DNA of 64,000 nucleotides. Source: Pseudomonadota bacterium (GTDB lineage Bacteria > Myxococcota_A > Bradymonadia > Bradymonadales > GCA-2716585). This document shows positions 45,132 through 61,545 of the stretch, in pieces. Where the stretch lies: contig SYOX01000369.1 of the NCBI GenBank assembly GCA_005804885.1, positions 1 to 64,000 on the forward strand. Direction: 5' to 3'. The translations under genes were made by a program, and so were the position numbers. The notes below the pieces were generated by a model. That model did not search any database. It was given only the letters and a program-made list of their open reading frames with translations, and was not told the DNA's origin. The number at the start of each line of letters is the position of its first letter. The stretch's first letter is position 1.

Positions 45132-48458
<3,327 letters not shown>

Positions 48459-48821
48459 CTCGATTCTCGCGCAAGGAGAGCGCCAGCCGCGACGCCAGGG
48501 CCTGGATATCACCGCGCGCCCTCGTCTTCAAGCGAGGCCAGCGGCGCCCTCGGCGGCGGGCTTCAGAGAGATCGTCGCGGAGCCTCGCGGATCGAAGTTC
48601 GCCCCCGCGCGCCGCGACCCAGGCCGAAGAGCGCAAGCCAGGGAGGGGGGAGACAAGGGCGTCGGGCGCCTTGTCCAGCGATCAGGGCGACGATCTCTGG
48701 CCGAATCAGGGAGGAGGCGCGCGAGAAGGCGATGGCGCCGTCGGGCGAGGTGATGCCTGGCCTCAAGTGATGGCGCCGCTGGATGGGAGGGCCTGCGTCG
48801 GTCGGCGCCTCCATGGGCGGG
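48459..48821. other. 363-bp intergenic region, no gene seen
   Basis: Lies between the CAP-lipoprotein stop and the MopE-like gene start, both on the minus strand. The only structure noticed is a 7-bp stem (GACAAGG with CCTTGTC, 48652-48675) with a bulged loop and no T-run. Confidence 0.5.
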
Positions 48822-52793: not shown

Positions 52794-53258
52794 TCAGGGG
52801 CAGATCGCGGGGAGGTTGACGCCGAGCTGGTCGGGGGTGATGGGGGGGGAGAGGACGGGATCGACGTCGGAGCCCTCGATCCCGATCCGGATCGTCAGAG
52901 GCGCGCCGCTCTGAAGGCGGGCGCAGTCGAGCCAGCGGACCTGGAGGGCGGGGACGCGCTCAGGATCGAAGGTCGGGATCGCGCCCAGCGAGGTCGAGCC
53001 GGGGAGGATGCGGGCGGGCGGGGCGCAGGCGGCGCCGCTGGCGTCACAGACCTCGAAGGTGGCCTTGAGCAGATCGCCCTCGGGATCGGAGACGCCGAAG
53101 ACGGTCGCGACGCCCCCCTCGGAGGCCAGCGAGGGGCCGACGAAGGCGACGTGGCCGGGGAGGTTGGAGACCTCCACCCCGTCGTCGCAGGCGAGCGTCG
53201 AGAGCGACGCAAGCGCCACCAGCGCCGTGATCAAGAGGGTCTTCTGGGGGCTTCTCAT
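52794..53258 (-). CDS. Small lipoprotein of unknown function
   Basis: A 154-residue lipoprotein; ATG 53258 has GGAG 6 bases upstream and a signal ending LSTLAC. The mature part is beta-rich with a cysteine pair (EVCDASGAAC) and a C-terminal Cys. It resembles a single immunoglobulin-like fold; no family recognised. It lies 83 bases downstream of the beta-lactamase/IMPase fusion gene's stop on the same strand. Confidence 0.7.
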   Translation of the reverse strand: MRSPQKTLLITALVALASLSTLACDDGVEVSNLPGHVAFVGPSLASEGGVATVFGVSDPEGDLLKATFEVCDASGAACAPPARILPGSTSLGAIPTFDPERVPALQVRWLDCARLQSGAPLTIRIGIEGSDVDPVLSPPITPDQLGVNLPAICP

Positions 53259-53341
53259 GGGCATCTCCGGCTGCGCCGCGTCGAGGGCGCGCTGGCGGCG
53301 CGGCCTTGTTGAGCCTGGCGCCCAGCGCGCCGCGCGGCGCC

Positions 53342-55360
53342 TCACTTTCTACGCGCCTCGGCCACCTGGGTCAAACACGCCGCCGCCTCGCCGTGGACCG
53401 GCCCGCAGGAGGCCAGCACGTCCCCCTTGTGGATGTCGTAGGGGCCGCCCTCGATGTCCGTCACGCGCCCTCCGGCCTCGTCGATGAGGACGAGGCCGGC
53501 GGCCACGTCCCAGGGCTTGATACGCAGCTCCCAGTAGAGATCGTAGCGCCCCGCCGCGACGTAGGCCAGATCCAGCCCCGCCGAGCCCATCCGCCGGATC
53601 CCCTGCACGCGGCGGATCATCACCCCGAGGTAGTCGACGTTGTTGTTGTCGCTGGTGCGCCTGTCGTAGGGGAAGCCGGTGGCCGCAAGCGCCTCGTTCA
53701 GGCGCCGACAGCCCGACACCTGCATCCTGCGCCCGTTGAGCCAGGCCCCGCCGCCCTTGCGCGCCGCGAAGAGCTCGTCGCGCATCGGATCGTAGATCAC
53801 GCCGATCTGGAGCTGATCCTCGACCTGGAGCGCCACGCAGATGGCGAAGTGCGGGGTCCGGTGGCTGAAGTTGGTCGTGCCGTCGATCGGATCGATGATC
53901 CACGTGCAGGGGCTGGCCGAGTTCGAGCGCCCGCCCTCCTCGGCCAGGAAGCCGTGATCGGGGAAGGCCGCCCGGATCGTCTCGATGATGATCGCCTCGC
54001 AGTCCAGGTCGGTCTGGGTGACCAGATCGACCTCGCCCTTGTGCACGATCTCCTGGGCCTGGGCGAAGCGCGCCCGCGCGAGCACCCCGGCCCGGCGCGC
54101 GGCCTCGATGGCGACCTCAAGCTCGCGGCGCCCCCCGTGGGCCAGGCGCGGCGTCGGGACACCCGAGACTTCAGGCACCTCGGGCCACAGGCGCCACCCG
54201 GGCGCGGGCGGACAGGCGCGGGCGACCTCGGTGTGGAGGCGGACGCGAAGCCCGCGTACTTCTTCGCGATCCCTGCTTGGGTGGACGCGATTGGTCAACA
54301 GGGCGACGGACAGCCGACGGCTGCGATCGACCCAGAGCGAGGTGCCGGTGAAGCCGAGGTGGCCGACGGTCGCGCCGACCGGGTCGGCGGTCATCAGGGG
54401 GCCAGCCGAGGTCGCGTCGCCCGAGGGCGTGTCGAGCCCGCCGAGGTGTGAGCCGAGGCGACGCCCGGCGGCATCGAAGCCCGCGGCCCTCGTCGACATG
54501 GCCCAGCGGACCGCCGAGGGGGAGATCGGCCAGCCGGCCAGCGCCCCGCCCTCAGCCGCCAGCAGCGCCTGTCCGAAGCGCGCCACGTCCTGCGCCGCGC
54601 CAAAGAGCCCGGCGTGGCCGGCCACGCCGCCGAGCGCAAAGGCGTTCTCGTCGTGGACCTGCCCGGAGACGCACGCGAGGCCGGGGGCGGCCTCGGTCGG
54701 CTCGGTGGCCGCGACCCCGTCGAGGATCCGCGCGCCGTCGAGCAGGCGCACGAAGCGACATGAGCGCATCCCCAGCGGCGCGAAGATGAGCGCCTCGGCC
54801 AGCGCGTCCAGCGGCCCGCCGAGCGCCCGCTCCAGCAGGAGGCCGAGCAGCATGTAGCCCAGATCGCTGTAGCAGGACACCTGCCCCGGAGCGGCCTCCA
54901 GGCTCGATTCGAAGAGCAGCCCGCGCGCCTGGGTCGCGATGGCGGCGGGGTCGCCGTCCGGACAAAGCGCCCGTGCCTCGCGGTGGAGGGCGCGCCACGC
55001 GGGCAGCCCGGAGGTGTGGTTGAGCAGCTGGCCGACGGTCACGCCGGCGGCCCGGCCCGGCGCCCACTCGGCGAGCCAGCGCGCCGCGGGGGCCTCGGGG
55101 GTCAGGATCCCCTGACCGAGCGCGTGCCAGACGAGGGGCGCGGTGACAAGGGCCTTGGTCAAGCTGGCCAGATCGTAGAGGGTCTCGGCGGTGACGGGCG
55201 CGGGGGGCGCGTCGGGGGGCGCGTGATCGGGCAAGGCCGTGCGGCCGACGCAGACGGTCTCGACGAGGCGCCCGTCGAGGGAGAGGGCGGCCTGGGCGCC
55301 GGGTGTGACGCCGTCGGCGACGGCCTGGGCGAGGATCGCTTCGAGGGCGGCCCTATCCAT
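53342..55360 (-). CDS. Fusion of serine beta-lactamase-like domain and inositol-monophosphatase-like domain
   Basis: One uninterrupted 672-residue polypeptide with no signal peptide. Residues ~1-385 are a class C beta-lactamase-like serine hydrolase: the nucleophile Ser66 and Lys69 in SLTK, the Tyr164-Ser-Asp motif in CYSDLGYM, and a HLGFTGTSLWVD segment in the place of the KTG motif. Residues ~412-665 are an IMPase-family phosphatase with the metal ligands Glu474/Glu475 in LAEEGG, Asp490 and Asp493 in DPIDGTTNF, and Asp618 in PWDVAAG. No ATG, GTG or TTG is present at the junction, so the second domain has no obvious start of its own. It begins 3 bases after the ldcA-like stop. A cytosolic hydrolase for muropeptides coupled to a sugar- or inositol-phosphate phosphatase is a reasonable but untested reading. 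Confidence 0.88.
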   Translation of the reverse strand: MDRAALEAILAQAVADGVTPGAQAALSLDGRLVETVCVGRTALPDHAPPDAPPAPVTAETLYDLASLTKALVTAPLVWHALGQGILTPEAPAARWLAEWAPGRAAGVTVGQLLNHTSGLPAWRALHREARALCPDGDPAAIATQARGLLFESSLEAAPGQVSCYSDLGYMLLGLLLERALGGPLDALAEALIFAPLGMRSCRFVRLLDGARILDGVAATEPTEAAPGLACVSGQVHDENAFALGGVAGHAGLFGAAQDVARFGQALLAAEGGALAGWPISPSAVRWAMSTRAAGFDAAGRRLGSHLGGLDTPSGDATSAGPLMTADPVGATVGHLGFTGTSLWVDRSRRLSVALLTNRVHPSRDREEVRGLRVRLHTEVARACPPAPGWRLWPEVPEVSGVPTPRLAHGGRRELEVAIEAARRAGVLARARFAQAQEIVHKGEVDLVTQTDLDCEAIIIETIRAAFPDHGFLAEEGGRSNSASPCTWIIDPIDGTTNFSHRTPHFAICVALQVEDQLQIGVIYDPMRDELFAARKGGGAWLNGRRMQVSGCRRLNEALAATGFPYDRRTSDNNNVDYLGVMIRRVQGIRRMGSAGLDLAYVAAGRYDLYWELRIKPWDVAAGLVLIDEAGGRVTDIEGGPYDIHKGDVLASCGPVHGEAAACLTQVAEARRK

Positions 55361-55363
55361 GGA

Positions 55364-56338
55364 CTACTCCTTGAGGGTGGCGGGCTGGACCTCAAGGCGG
55401 GCGGACCCGTCGAGGCAGCGCAGGGTGGCGCGGGTGCCAAAGGGCAGCGGGCGGTTCATCGCGCCGTGGCCGACGGGCAGGCCGAGGGCGACGGGCACGC
55501 CGAGATCGTCGGTGAGCTGTCGGAGCCTCTCCAGGGTCACGGCCTCGAAGCGGTCGGCGGCGACGTAGGCGTCGGCGACGGGCTCGAGATCCCCGATGAC
55601 GAGGCCTGCCAGGGCGCTCAGGGCGCCGCGCAGCGCCAGCCCGGTCAGCATCCTGTCGACGCGGTAGGCGGCCTCGCCGACCTCCTCGATGAAGAGGATC
55701 GCGCCGTCGAGGGCGGGGAAGAAGGGGGAGCCGACCAGGCTGGCGATCAGGGAGAGGTTGCCGCCGATCAGGGGCCCGGTGGCCTCTCCGTCGGACAGGG
55801 CGCGCAGGCCATCCACCGCCACGAGGTCATCCTGGCCGCGCAGGGCGCGCAGGGTGGCGTCGAAGGAGCCTGCCGGGTCGGGAGGATCGGCGTGCTGCCC
55901 GAGGGTGGAGAGCAGGGGCCCGTGGATGGAGGCTATCCCTGCGCAGCGGTTCAAGAAACCGTGCAGGGCGGTGACGTCGGAGAAGCCGAGCAGGGGCTTG
56001 GGGTGGCGCGCGAAGAGGTCGGGGTCGAGCAGGGGGAGCAGGCGCATGGCGCCGTAGCCGCCGCGGGCGCAGACGACGCCGTCGACGGCGGGATCAAGGA
56101 AGGCGTCGGTGAGGGCGCGGGCGCGGGCGTGGTCGTCGCCGGCGAGGTAGGGCGCGGCGGGATCGCGCAGGGAGACGGAGGGCGAGAGGGAGAGGGTGAA
56201 GCCGGCGGCTTCGAGGAGCGCGCGGGGCCGGTCGAGGCGCGCGGGATCGACGACCCCGCAAGGGGCGACGACGCGCAGGTGGCCGCCGTGGGGGACGGGC
56301 GGGACGGGGCGGGCGTATGGGGCCGCAGGGCGGATCAA
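55364..56338 (-). CDS. LD-carboxypeptidase (peptidase S66 family)
   Basis: A 324-residue cytosolic enzyme of the LdcA family, which trims the terminal D-alanine from tetrapeptides released during cell-wall recycling. The fold markers are the N-terminal LRVVAPCGVVD strand, GVVCARGGYGAMRLLP, the nucleophile Ser in LLGFSDVTAL, the Glu in LFIEEVGE and the His in GLPVGHGAMN, giving the Ser-Glu-His triad. The likely start is a TTG at 56338 that overlaps the preceding stop as TTGA; no ATG exists between that stop and the first conserved strand. It is the third gene of the J/Hsp70/LdcA/beta-lactamase-IMPase operon. Confidence 0.88.
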   Translation of the reverse strand: MIRPAAPYARPVPPVPHGGHLRVVAPCGVVDPARLDRPRALLEAAGFTLSLSPSVSLRDPAAPYLAGDDHARARALTDAFLDPAVDGVVCARGGYGAMRLLPLLDPDLFARHPKPLLGFSDVTALHGFLNRCAGIASIHGPLLSTLGQHADPPDPAGSFDATLRALRGQDDLVAVDGLRALSDGEATGPLIGGNLSLIASLVGSPFFPALDGAILFIEEVGEAAYRVDRMLTGLALRGALSALAGLVIGDLEPVADAYVAADRFEAVTLERLRQLTDDLGVPVALGLPVGHGAMNRPLPFGTRATLRCLDGSARLEVQPATLKE

Positions 56339-57930
56339 TCGGCGCCGAGCTCGAGGGGGTCGCCGCCGATGGGGGGGAGGCCGTCGGCTTCGCGCTTGAG
56401 CTGCTCCTGCCGGGCGCGATCCGCGTAGTCCTCGATGACGATGGACTGGGTCTCGTTGGTGTCCAGATCCATGGCCGAGACGGAGAGCATCCCGCTGGCG
56501 TCGATGCGGAAGCTGACCTCGATCTGGGGCTCCCGACGCAGCGCCTCTCGGATGTTGGTCAGGACGAACTCGCCCAGGTTGGTGTTCTCCGAGGCCACGC
56601 GGCTCTCGCCCTGGAAGACCTTGATACGGACCTGCTCCTGGTAGTCGGTGGAGGTGGTGAAGATCTTGCTGATCCGGTGGGGGACCTTGGTGTTGCGGCC
56701 GATGATGGGGGCGAAGAGGTTGCCGAGCGACTCGATGCCGAGGGTCAGCGGGGTGACGTCGATGAGCAGGACGTCGCTGGTGGCGTCGTTGAGGGTGTGG
56801 GCCTTGATGGCGGCGCCGAAGGCGACGACCTCGTCGGTGTTGAGGTCGTCGTTGGGCTCCTTGCCGAAGAACTTGGCGACCCGCTCGCGGACCATGGGCA
56901 TGCGGGTCTGGCCGCCGACGAGGATTACGTCGTCGATGTCGGGGATGTCGACCCGCGCGTCGGCGAAGGTCTTGGTGCAGATGCGCAGCGTCTGCTCGAC
57001 CAGGTCGACGCACATCTCCTCAAGCTGCGCGCGGGTCAGGCGCTGGTAGACGTGGGCGTTGAAGTCCACGTTGGGCGCGATCCGGGGCAGGTTGACGACC
57101 GTCTCGCTGGCCTCGGACAGGTCGATCTTGGCCTTCTCGGCCGCGTCCAGGACGCGCTGCATGGCCATCTTGTCGCGCCGCAGGTCGATGCCGCTCTCCT
57201 TCTGGAACTGGGACACGATGTAATCGACGATCCGGCGGTTGACGTCGTCGCCGCCGAGGTAGCTGTCGCCGCCCGTGGCGATGACCTCGAAGACATTGCC
57301 GTCGATGTCCAGGATCGAGATGTCGAAGGTCCCGCCGCCGAAGTCGTAGACCGCCACCGTCGAGCGCAGATCCTGGCCGTAGCCATAGGCCAGCGCCGCC
57401 GCGGTGGGCTCGTTGATCAAGCGCAGCACCTCCAGGCCGGCGTTCTCCGCCGCCAGCAGCGTCTCCTTGCGCTGACGATCGTTGAAGTGCGCCGGGACCG
57501 TGATCACCGCCTCCTTGAGCGGGATCTGGAGGTAGGCCTCGGCCAGCCCCTTGACCTTGAGCAGGATCTGGGTCGAGACCTCGTGCGGGTAGATCTTCAG
57601 ATCCTTGAGCAGGCAGACCGGCCGGCCCTCGGCGTCGCTCTCGACCGGGTAGGTCAGGTGCTTCTTCGCCTTCTGCAGATCCGGGTCGCCGAAGGGCTGC
57701 CCCATGAGCCGCTTGGCCGAATACAAGGTCCCGTAGGGGTTCGTGATCTGCTGCGCCTTGGCGAAGTGGCCCACGACCACCTCGCCTCGGTTGTTGAGCG
57801 TCATGACCGAGGGCGTCACCCGACGGCCGCGCTCGTCCGTGACCACCTTGACGTCGTCGCCCTCGACGAAGGCCACGCAGGTGTTCGATGTCCCCAGATC
57901 AATACCCAGCACGGGCCTGTCTTCTGTCAC
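56335..57930 (-). CDS. Hsp70/DnaK-like chaperone lacking the helical lid
   Basis: A 531-residue Hsp70. The GTG start at 57930 has AAGGAGG 6 bases upstream. The nucleotide-binding domain is intact: GIDLGTSNTCVAF, the VPAHFNDRQR block, the INEPTAAALAYG segment and YDFGGGTFDIS. The linker VLLIDVTPLTLG and a beta-sandwich substrate domain follow. After about residue 500 the usual ~100-residue alpha-helical lid is missing, and the protein ends in a short acidic tail, so it is ~100 residues shorter than DnaK. It is probably not the main housekeeping DnaK. It lies 1 base after a J-domain gene, its likely co-chaperone. Confidence 0.93.
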   Translation of the reverse strand: MTEDRPVLGIDLGTSNTCVAFVEGDDVKVVTDERGRRVTPSVMTLNNRGEVVVGHFAKAQQITNPYGTLYSAKRLMGQPFGDPDLQKAKKHLTYPVESDAEGRPVCLLKDLKIYPHEVSTQILLKVKGLAEAYLQIPLKEAVITVPAHFNDRQRKETLLAAENAGLEVLRLINEPTAAALAYGYGQDLRSTVAVYDFGGGTFDISILDIDGNVFEVIATGGDSYLGGDDVNRRIVDYIVSQFQKESGIDLRRDKMAMQRVLDAAEKAKIDLSEASETVVNLPRIAPNVDFNAHVYQRLTRAQLEEMCVDLVEQTLRICTKTFADARVDIPDIDDVILVGGQTRMPMVRERVAKFFGKEPNDDLNTDEVVAFGAAIKAHTLNDATSDVLLIDVTPLTLGIESLGNLFAPIIGRNTKVPHRISKIFTTSTDYQEQVRIKVFQGESRVASENTNLGEFVLTNIREALRREPQIEVSFRIDASGMLSVSAMDLDTNETQSIVIEDYADRARQEQLKREADGLPPIGGDPLELGAD

Positions 57931-57931
57931 C

Positions 57932-59068
57932 TCACCCCTCCTTGCTCGACAGCTCCTTGAGCATCCGACGAGCCTCCTCGTGGTGCGGGTTGTACCTCAA
58001 GGCCAGCTTGATCCTGGCCGCCGCCCCCGCACCATCCCCCCGCTGCCGCTCCTTGACCGCCTCAGCATACAGCGAATCGGCCATCTTGACCATCTTCGGG
58101 TTGACGTCCGAATACTTCTGGCGTCGGCGCAGCGCGATCTTCTGATCCGCGCTGCCCCCGGCCTCAGAGCCGCTCAGGTTCCCGATCTCCGCGTCGTAGG
58201 CGATGCGCCGCTTGGGCGTGATCAGCACCTCATAGGCCACCGTGATCCGCTGGTAGACCCCCTCCAGAGCACCAAAGGCCTCGCGCTCCAGCCGCCTGAA
58301 GTAGTTGTCCGGGTGGAACTGCCGCATCAAGGCCGAGTACGAGGACCGGATCGCCCGCTTGTCCGCGTTCCTCGCAACCCCAAGCACCTCATAGTGGCCG
58401 CCGCCCCGCGTCCGCGCCTCGAAGGCCCCGGCCTCCTTGAGGATTCGCCGCGACAGCGCCGCGTCAGGCTCCAGCGCGCCGTCCATGTCCACGCTCGCGC
58501 GGACCACCACCACCACCTCTCCGCTCGCCGCCGCTGCACGCCCGCCACCGGCCACGGCCAGCGGCGCCGAGCCTCCACCGCCCGAGGGCTGCGTCGGCGT
58601 CGAGCCGACACCCCTCGCCGCCTGAGCCGGCGTCGAGCCGACCCCTCGCGCCGCCTGAGCTGGCGTCGAGCCGACCCCCCGCGCCGCCTGCGCCAGGGCC
58701 GCGCCCCCCTCGACCACCCCCAGCGCCTCCCTCGCGTCCTGCCAGCGACCCTCCAGGTAGGCCTCGCCCCCCTTGATCTCCCGCTCCCCCATCCGCACCG
58801 AGAAGCCCAGCCCCGGCATCCGCCCCGGCGGACAGTGGGCCGCCTCCAGCACGAAGACCACCTCGGCGTCGATCTCAAGCGAGAAGGGCGCCTCGGCCAC
58901 GCCGAAGGCCAGCACCACCTTGGCGAAGGGCTCAAGGCGCTCTGGCGTCGGGATGAAGAAGCGCCCTGCCTTCAACTCCGAGGACCAGGTCGCGCGAAGC
59001 GCCTCCAACGTCGGGAAGTTGAGCTTGAAGCGCGTCTTTGTCGAGGTGCCTTTCTGCGTCAAGGACAT
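57932..59068 (-). CDS. PilZ-like/J-domain protein, co-chaperone of the lid-less Hsp70
   Basis: A 378-residue cytosolic protein; ATG 59068 is chosen because it begins the conserved domain. Residues ~10-110 resemble the myxobacterial PilZ-type domain (TIGR02266): a TLEALRATWSSELKAGRFF block and a GLGFSVRM strand. A linker has three tandem 11-residue units (AQAARGVGSTP). The J domain follows (~228-295) with the Hsp70-activating HPD at 252-254 in MRQFHPDNYF. The tail has a TPR-like helical pair. If the PilZ-like part binds c-di-GMP this would tie the second messenger to chaperone activity; the usual RxxxR and DxSxxG ligands are not clearly seen, so binding is doubtful. Confidence 0.85.
   Translation of the reverse strand: MSLTQKGTSTKTRFKLNFPTLEALRATWSSELKAGRFFIPTPERLEPFAKVVLAFGVAEAPFSLEIDAEVVFVLEAAHCPPGRMPGLGFSVRMGEREIKGGEAYLEGRWQDAREALGVVEGGAALAQAARGVGSTPAQAARGVGSTPAQAARGVGSTPTQPSGGGGSAPLAVAGGGRAAAASGEVVVVVRASVDMDGALEPDAALSRRILKEAGAFEARTRGGGHYEVLGVARNADKRAIRSSYSALMRQFHPDNYFRRLEREAFGALEGVYQRITVAYEVLITPKRRIAYDAEIGNLSGSEAGGSADQKIALRRRQKYSDVNPKMVKMADSLYAEAVKERQRGDGAGAAARIKLALRYNPHHEEARRMLKELSSKEG
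58593..58691. repeat. 33-bp tandem repeats in the linker of the J-domain gene
   Basis: Three 33-base units (58593-58625, 58626-58658, 58659-58691) with a shared core GGCGTCGAGCCGAC. On the minus strand they encode three copies of an 11-residue linker unit. Confidence 0.9.
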
Positions 59069-59235
59069 CACCCAGCGGACCCTTTGAGGACCCCGTACCT
59101 GTTCCCCTGCAATGCTGCCGTTCGAGACAAGCTGAACAATTTTTACAGCACAAAGGCCAACCAGGGCAAGCGAGCCTGGACCCACGGAGAGCCCAGCGCC
59201 ACTCCATGGCCGCTCGACGCGCTCTGGGGCCGCCA

Positions 59236-61545
59236 TCAAGGCGCCGGACCGCAATCCAGCTCCGCGCGGACGAGCAGCCGCCCGCCCTCCGGCCTGAGGA
59301 CCACCCCACCGCAGCGGATCGTGTCCAGGACGAGGGCGCCGTTGGCCCTCAGCCGATCCACGACCTCCGGGACCGGGTGCCCGAAGCGGTTGCCTGCCCC
59401 GGCCTGGATCACGGCCACGGGCGCGCGGGCTCGGCGCAAGAACTCCAATGAAGACGATGTCTTGCTGCCATGATGAGCCACCTTGAGCGCGTGCACCGGC
59501 CTGACACGGGGCAAGGCGAGGCGCTCACCCTCTGCCTCGATGTCGCCCGTCAGGAGCACCCTGAGGCCCTCCACCTCCACCTCCATGACCACGCTGCGAT
59601 CATTGCGAGAGGCCCCGCCGCCGCGATCCAGGCGCCGAAAGACCATCGCCCCGACCTGCGCCCGCGCCGGCGGCTCCATGACGCGGGCCCCCACGAGCCG
59701 GGCCGCCTCCAGCACCTCGGCCTCCAGCGCATTGCGCCCGTCCGGCGCGCTCCACCAGATCCAGCGCGGCCTGAAGCGCCGCACGACCGACGCCACGCCC
59801 CCGATGTGATCCAGATCCGCGTGCGAGATCACCACCCCGTCCAGGCGCCTCACCCCCAGCCGCAAGAGCCCCGGCCTGACGACCTCCTCGCCTGCATCCT
59901 GGCCCTCCAGGCCGCGCCCCCCGGCGTCCACGAGCACCGCCGCGCCGCGACCATCCCGCAGCAGGATCGAGTCCCCCTGACCCACCGGCAGGAACCTCAC
60001 CTCCGGCCCCGAGGGCCCGCCCCACAGCCCCACCGCCAGCACCCCGGCCGACAGGCACGCCAGCGCCGCCCTCCCCTTGCCTCGGGCCGCCAGGGCTCCG
60101 GCCACGATCAGCACCGCGACGAGCGCCGGCCCAGGCCACAAGCCCACCTCGATCCCCGACATCGGCATCTCCACCGCCATCGCCTCGATCCCCCACATCC
60201 CCGCCCAGCACACCCAAAGGAGGCCCTCGGCGACGCCCTCCAGCCCAGGGATCGCCGAGAACACCAGCGCGCCCAGGCCGCTGATCAAGCTCAACATCAT
60301 CAAGGGAATGGCCGGGACGTTGAGCCCCACCCCCAGCAAGGGAAGCCGCCCGAAGTGCCACATCAACCACGGCGCACACGCCGCGCTGCACACCACGGAC
60401 GCCTTCGCGGTCCCCACCGCCCACCCCAGCGCGCCGCTCGCCTCCCGCTCCTCTCCCTCGAAGATCGCCCCGAGGCCGGCCAGCGCCGAGACCGAGAGCT
60501 GAAACCCCGGATCAAAGAGCGCGTGGGTCGTGTCCCCGAGCAAGATCACCGCCGCCGCCACCGCGATCCCCGTGGACATCGCCCCACGGCGATCCAACGC
60601 CGACGCCACCCGCCACCCGACCAGCATCACGAAGGATCTCTGCGCCGACACGGGCCACCCCACCAGCGCCGCGAAGACCCCCACCACCGCCAACCCCCCC
60701 GCGCTCGACGCCCACCGCGCCCGCCGCCCACCGAGCCTGTCGACCGCAGCGATCACCAGCCCGCCCAGTAAGCTCAAGTGCAACCCCGAGATCGCCAGCA
60801 GGTGGCTCAACCCCGCCTCGTCGATGGGCGCTCGGCGCTCGGGCGAGATGAACCCCTTCGTCCCGGTCAGGATCGCCAGCACGAGCGCCGCGCGCTCCTG
60901 GCCGAGCGCCCCCTCGATCCACGCCTCGCGCCCCTGCCGCCAGCGGTCCAGCGCGCCCCGCGCCGTCGCCGATCCTTCAAGCCGCACCACGGGCTCCTCG
61001 GCGGACAGCCCGCCGGCCAGCCGCAGCCGCGCAGACCAGCGCCACATATCGGGCAGCCAGCGCGCCTCCCGCTCCCTCGGCCGCCACGCGCGACCCCCCG
61101 CCCACACCCTGTCGCCGCCCACCACGGGCGCCCCCTCGGCCGCGCTCAACAGGAGGCGCGCGCTGCAGGGCCTCCCATCACATTGATCAGCCCGCACCAC
61201 CGCCGACCACCCGCCGCCCAGCCTGGCGCGCGACCCCTCCTCCACCACGCCCTCCAGCTCCGACCACGCCTCCGCGTCGCGGCCCCAGCCCGCAGGCGCC
61301 CCCAGCGCGGGATCTGCGGCGCTCAGGTGAGCGCCGAGCCCCAGCGCCACTCCGCACGCCCCCAGGATCACCCAGGGCGACCGCCTCGACGATCGCAACC
61401 CCCACCACCACGAGGCCCCCACGAAGGCCGCCGCGACCACCCAGGGCCAGAGCGGCGCAGACACCGACCCCGACCCGCGCAGCGCGTCCCCCAGGACCAC
61501 GCCGAGCGCCACCCCCGCCACCAGCGCCGGCCACAACCACTGCAT
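59236..61545 (-). CDS. comEC: ComEC/Rec2 family DNA uptake channel
   Basis: A 769-residue membrane protein that forms the inner-membrane channel for transforming DNA. It begins with membrane segments and an OB-fold-like periplasmic region. The central competence domain carries about eight helices, with the HLLAISGLHLSLLGG block. The C-terminal MBL-fold domain has the metal motif ISHADLDHIGG and later VAHHGSKTSSS. ATG 61545 has GAGAGAG just upstream. With comF at 20.7-21.6 kb it suggests natural competence, though the two are far apart. The stop is 167 bases upstream of the J-domain gene start. Confidence 0.94.
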   Translation of the reverse strand: MQWLWPALVAGVALGVVLGDALRGSGSVSAPLWPWVVAAAFVGASWWWGLRSSRRSPWVILGACGVALGLGAHLSAADPALGAPAGWGRDAEAWSELEGVVEEGSRARLGGGWSAVVRADQCDGRPCSARLLLSAAEGAPVVGGDRVWAGGRAWRPREREARWLPDMWRWSARLRLAGGLSAEEPVVRLEGSATARGALDRWRQGREAWIEGALGQERAALVLAILTGTKGFISPERRAPIDEAGLSHLLAISGLHLSLLGGLVIAAVDRLGGRRARWASSAGGLAVVGVFAALVGWPVSAQRSFVMLVGWRVASALDRRGAMSTGIAVAAAVILLGDTTHALFDPGFQLSVSALAGLGAIFEGEEREASGALGWAVGTAKASVVCSAACAPWLMWHFGRLPLLGVGLNVPAIPLMMLSLISGLGALVFSAIPGLEGVAEGLLWVCWAGMWGIEAMAVEMPMSGIEVGLWPGPALVAVLIVAGALAARGKGRAALACLSAGVLAVGLWGGPSGPEVRFLPVGQGDSILLRDGRGAAVLVDAGGRGLEGQDAGEEVVRPGLLRLGVRRLDGVVISHADLDHIGGVASVVRRFRPRWIWWSAPDGRNALEAEVLEAARLVGARVMEPPARAQVGAMVFRRLDRGGGASRNDRSVVMEVEVEGLRVLLTGDIEAEGERLALPRVRPVHALKVAHHGSKTSSSLEFLRRARAPVAVIQAGAGNRFGHPVPEVVDRLRANGALVLDTIRCGGVVLRPEGGRLLVRAELDCGPAP

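Follow-up and report, generated by a model that had tools for sequence, protein, structure and literature searches.

What could a single protein accomplish that joins a serine hydrolase resembling penicillin-binding proteins to a domain of the inositol-monophosphatase type, and that is encoded directly behind a gene for an LD-carboxypeptidase? This question is raised by a minus-strand locus in the window, by which we mean the whole stretch of 64,000 nucleotides that was analysed. A sequence-only reading had suggested that the protein serves in cytoplasmic cell-wall recycling, where the hydrolase might act on a muropeptide and the phosphatase on a recycled sugar phosphate. The explanation that we consider best, at a probability of about 0.5, is a fusion of single origin between a murein-salvage serine amidohydrolase and a SuhB-like housekeeping phosphatase, which were joined by operon history. 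The features of the locus are as follows.

57932 to 59254, minus strand: gene of a DnaJ-domain protein (domain match)
56335 to 57930, minus strand: dnaK-like HSP70 gene, apparently the upstream part of one operon with the genes below (domain match; same order in genomes G001, G002 and G004)
55364 to 56338, minus strand: S66 LD-carboxypeptidase gene (PF02016 and PF17676; TTG start inferred)
55367 to 55372, minus strand: AAGGAG, a Shine-Dalgarno-like stretch ahead of the ATG of the fusion gene (sequence)
53342 to 55360, minus strand: fusion gene, 672 aa, a single open frame (same fusion in G001, G002 and G004)
54254 to 55342, minus strand: PF00144 serine hydrolase domain, residues 7-369 (S66-x-x-K69, Y164-S-D166, H334-L-G336)
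54125 to 54235, minus strand: joint or linker, about residues 376-412, without an in-frame ATG
53375 to 54121, minus strand: PF00459 inositol-monophosphatase domain, residues 414-662 (E474, E475, D490, D493, D618; AlphaFold, and Foldseek to SuhB)
52794 to 53345, minus strand: lipoprotein-like ORF downstream, overlapping the stop of the fusion gene (no Pfam match; conserved in the family)

The S66 gene stops 3 bases ahead of the ATG of the fusion gene, and its probable TTG start overlaps the dnaK stop, the 549-aa ORF listed for it extending back into dnaK. Its product matches PF02016 and PF17676 at 110 bits each, which bears out the LD-carboxypeptidase assigned to this position earlier, and scores 128.7 bits against the LdcA equivalog NF008424, below the 378 bits required. 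As further observations on the window, the DnaJ-domain protein (57932-59254, minus) carries a short tandem GVGSTPAQAAR repeat and precedes a short-form HSP70 of 531 residues, the lipoprotein-like ORF (52794-53345, minus) is also weakly conserved in G007, and seven stretches of a protein of 1126 residues (45132-48512, minus) match PF11617, a repeated MopE-like metal-binding motif.

The fusion is real, and one protein comprises two complete enzymes, a PBP-like hydrolase and a common sugar-phosphate phosphatase. In the ORF, which runs from 55360 down to 53342 on the minus strand, the Pfam search finds PF00144 at residues 7-369 (157.6 bits, E 5.8e-46) and PF00459 at residues 414-662 (243.6 bits, E 3.6e-72), both domains complete and both above the gathering cut-off of 27 bits. 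All catalytic residues named in the sequence-only reading are present and conserved among relatives: Ser66, Lys69 and Tyr164 in 70 of 70 aligned relatives of the hydrolase half, Glu474, Asp490 and Asp493 in 39 of 39 aligned relatives of the phosphatase half, and Asp618 in 38 of these 39. The third motif of the S12 family, His334-Leu-Gly336, was absent from that list and is likewise conserved in 70 of 70; the S-x-x-K, Tyr and H/K-x-G motifs of S12 are found as S66-LT-K69, Y164-SD and H334-LG. The absence of an internal start at the joint, claimed at the same time, holds as well, as no in-frame ATG was found there, and of the start-like codons around it (GTG395, GTG426 and GTG439) only GTG439, which lies inside the phosphatase domain, is preceded by a Shine-Dalgarno-like stretch. 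The N terminus, read by eye, contains no signal-peptide-like stretch, in agreement with the earlier description.

For every family member known here the genome is a draft, which leaves room for the view that the fusion is an artefact of sequencing or assembly. This view is scarcely credible, however, because the same continuous frame is present in four genera, the linkers differ among these genera and yet are free of stops, and the GC3 bias continues through the joint at the level of both halves. The three genera other than that of the window (G001, G002 and G004) carry the frame in separate assemblies, at 53-61% identity, and it is therefore not an assembly error.

The recovery of these three carriers also completes a search for the same fusion in other genomes that had been proposed as a check. 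With the genome of the window (9.86 Mb, 428 contigs, 84% complete) counted in, the locus is present in four family genomes, each of which carries the fusion; in the fifth member, whose genome is 65% complete, no such locus was seen. In the trees, the fused phosphatases form one clade (support 100/99), as do the fused hydrolases (support 100/98), and both clades are most simply explained by one fusion event. Relatives with two separate genes, which the sequence-only reading would have taken as refuting the fusion, do exist outside the family, with separate neighbouring PF00144 and PF00459 genes in about 24 other regions; rather than refuting the fusion, they show how it arose. In other families of the class, most regions read have the order S66 LD-carboxypeptidase, PF00144, PF00459. 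The fusion is best read as a single merging of two neighbouring operon genes: the common ancestor of this family, which is related to Bradymonadales, would have had an operon in the order S66, hydrolase, phosphatase and would have joined the latter two genes. Bradymonadales are predatory bacteria. Two further arrangements were seen in the class. Loci of family f3 (L125 4048-6605 and others) have the chromosome-partition cluster of rsmG (GidB), parA and parB behind the S66-hydrolase-phosphatase operon. In family f2 (Bradymonadales) the gene immediately upstream of S66 encodes a DUF3108 protein (L140 5431-6411, and likewise 13 f2 loci). No paper on the fusion was found in the literature search, and as far as this search reached, the statement that no enzyme of this form has been described holds. 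What is new is the combination, two well-known enzyme families in one protein.

The function of the hydrolase half can be approached through the genes to which its relatives are linked. S66 and hydrolase genes lie side by side in many of the 189 phylum genomes searched. Twenty S66-hydrolase regions and two deltaproteobacterial-type loci were read, 22 in total, most of them picked since both genes lay on one contig, so that the sample is not random; within it, 10 of the 22 regions have Mpl as the next gene downstream, one of the 10 being from a Syntrophobacteraceae MAG. Mpl was the best family for all downstream ligases scanned, most of which score slightly below the curated Mpl cut-off. In several cases the linkage extends to fusion. 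Hydrolase and Mpl form one frame of 845 residues in L186 (G064:C124, 2958-5492, minus), and S66 and hydrolase are fused in frame in G030, G033, G036 and G041, from another family of the class, and in the more distant G135 (loci L145, L163, L164, L165 and L203). A PF00144 hydrolase of Terracidiphilus is fused to both NamZ exo-muramidase domains (L228, 7450-9828, plus), another relative in this genus (Acidobacteria) adjoins a MurQ gene over the cut-off, and in E. coli, too, a PF00144 relative lies beside murQ. The context is not uniform, as in other genomes mreBC, accD or CNNM genes come after S66-hydrolase. In a single draft genome, the hydrolase forms one frame of 706 residues with AccD, a carboxyl transferase with zinc ribbon (L193, G201:C74, 5943-8060, minus), and a fusion partner alone is thus not diagnostic of function.

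Together, the conserved S66-hydrolase order, the Mpl genes next to it, the fusions to S66, Mpl and NamZ and the MurQ neighbours lend good support to a recycling role of the hydrolase half, which most likely serves cytoplasmic murein-peptide salvage. To this extent the earlier proposal of cytoplasmic cell-wall recycling stands. The same linkages bear on the view that the hydrolase is a family VIII-type carboxylesterase without a role in murein, placed beside S66 by chance. EstB is the best PDB sequence match, Est-Y29 and EstG are the top Foldseek matches, and relatives of the hydrolase are also encoded on a plasmid of haloarchaea, whose cells have no murein; even so, chance proximity is hard to reconcile with repeated linkage and fusion to S66, Mpl, NamZ and MurQ in several phyla, and we regard this view as improbable. 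The hydrolase-only model (pTM 0.80) matches many PF00144 folds at a TM of about 0.6, with no single activity favoured.

Which step of salvage the hydrolase might catalyse depends on what else the group encodes, as judged by family searches across 58 of its genomes. PF00933, the NagZ family, is present in 55 of the 58, AmpG is over the cut-off in 27, and the Mpl model TIGR01081 has matches in all 58, over the cut-off in 17, the weaker matches including other Mur ligases. AnmK makes and MurQ uses MurNAc-6-phosphate; AnmK was found in only 1 of the 58 genomes (the fusion carrier G002) and MurQ over the cut-off in none. The group thus seems to have the peptide branch of recycling and to lack the known sugar branch. 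Amidase_2, the family to which AmpD belongs, is represented in most class members and wholly absent from 15 of the 58 genomes, including G057 with its S66-hydrolase-Mpl operon. The genome of the window has three Amidase_2 proteins, one secreted and multidomain and two that, by eye, resemble parts of phages or secretion systems, and none of the three is AmpD-like. On this reading, the amide-cleaving step seems to be unfilled unless the PF00144 enzyme performs it.

This step also helps to weigh the proposal that the hydrolase is a cytoplasmic D,D-carboxypeptidase like YfeW (PBP4B) of E. coli, converting pentapeptide to tetrapeptide muropeptides from which S66 would then make tripeptides for Mpl, with the phosphatase as a passenger. 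YfeW is 30% identical to the hydrolase half over 372 positions (BLAST, E 7e-36), the PBP4B equivalog NF002968 is the best NCBIfam match of this half, and the R61 DD-peptidase is also among the Foldseek matches; for YfeW, a DD-carboxypeptidase activity has been reported (Vega and Ayala 2006, as cited in PMC5061867). The PBP4B score of 103.6 bits, however, is far under the curated cut-off of 385, the proposal leaves amide cleavage unfilled in genomes without Amidase_2, and one relative is fused to NamZ, an enzyme of the sugar side. We therefore consider it possible, though unlikely. Probably, the hydrolase half is instead a MurNAc-L-alanine amidase of the AmiE type, a stand-in for AmpD. The kinship in sequence covers YfeW and relatives in murein-linked settings, while AmiE is connected by family and context, since the genes of relatives, like that of AmiE, are linked to murein-salvage enzymes, here S66, Mpl, NamZ and MurQ. 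As an AmiE-type amidase, the N-terminal half would work in murein salvage as a serine amidohydrolase of the cytoplasm. Salvage would start with import by AmpG and trimming by NagZ, and S66 would remove the fourth D-Ala; the hydrolase, like AmiE of Bacillus, would then split the MurNAc-L-Ala amide and free the tripeptide, which Mpl would attach to UDP-MurNAc. The hydrolase would thereby fill the place of AmpD.

No protein of its genome matches PF00459 more strongly than the phosphatase half, which shares 40-50% identity with inositol monophosphatases from many phyla. The full-length AlphaFold model has a mean pLDDT of 58 and is reliable only in this half, where pLDDT is mostly above 90, and Foldseek matches the half to SuhB structures. 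Its score against the SuhB equivalog NF008027 is 218.2 bits, below the cut-off of 332. Several other identities were rejected: HisN histidinol-phosphatase (TIGR02067, 169 bits, cut-off 275) and CysQ, both of which score below the cut-off, and MupP, which has a HAD fold, whereas the domain is PF00459. De novo inositol synthesis was likewise rejected as a common reason for the phosphatase, as inositol-phosphate synthase (PF01658) is found in 37 of the 58 genomes and in none of the 5 of the fusion family. We take this half for a metal-dependent phosphatase of SuhB type, which most likely retains a housekeeping role on a small phosphomonoester, such as inositol phosphate or similar. In several genomes the phosphatase gene lies apart from the hydrolase gene, and the enzyme probably has a job of its own.

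The idea that both halves act in one salvage route goes back to the sequence-only reading. In this route, the hydrolase would release the peptide, and MurNAc-6-phosphate or another recycled amino-sugar phosphate would be dephosphorylated by the phosphatase in place of MupP. The idea draws on the operon and the fusion, and on G002, a fusion carrier with AnmK and without MurQ over the cut-off, which would need a MurNAc-6-phosphate phosphatase. Yet AnmK and MurQ are missing from almost the whole class, which leaves MurNAc-6-phosphate without a known source except in G002, several genomes encode the phosphatase away from the hydrolase, G201 has a hydrolase in one frame with AccD, and the known MurNAc-6-phosphate phosphatase MupP is a HAD enzyme (PMC5371407). 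We consider a shared route doubtful, and the assignment of the SuhB-like half to a recycled sugar phosphate found no support. Even less probable is a bifunctional cytoplasmic murein-salvage enzyme in which the serine amidase replaces AmpD and the inositol-phosphatase-type domain replaces MupP on an amino-sugar phosphate from the same route. It is most likely operon history, rather than a shared substrate, through which the phosphatase became joined to the hydrolase. Of greater importance than the fusion itself is the S66-hydrolase-Mpl operon in many Myxococcota; in a group without AnmK and MurQ, and partly without the AmpD family, this pattern points to a serine enzyme for the amide-cleaving step of murein-peptide salvage.

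The closest functional parallel would be AmiE (YbbE) of B. subtilis, a PF00144 N-acetylmuramyl-L-alanine amidase encoded in the cluster murQ-murR-murP-amiE-nagZ(-ybbC), with which the hydrolase half shares its family and its relatives share the murein-salvage gene setting (PMC5061867, PMC10653849). AmiE is extracellular, in contrast to the window protein with its N terminus devoid, by eye, of a signal, and the latter sits with S66 instead of MurQ and NagZ and carries a phosphatase domain. YfeW has the same motifs as the window hydrolase and is encoded in murQ-murP-yfeW, but it consists of one domain with an export-type N terminus, and the window protein scores below the PBP4B cut-off. The phosphatase half is about 40% identical to solved SuhB structures and has all metal ligands, and differs from SuhB in its fusion to a hydrolase and in a score below the equivalog cut-off. 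As in classical recycling (AmpG, NagZ, LdcA, AmpD, Mpl), the class has AmpG, NagZ-family, S66 and Mpl-type genes; in contrast to it, the class lacks AnmK (except in G002) and MurQ over the cut-off, no AmpD was seen in the genome of the window, and elsewhere in the phylum a PF00144 gene lies between S66 and Mpl.
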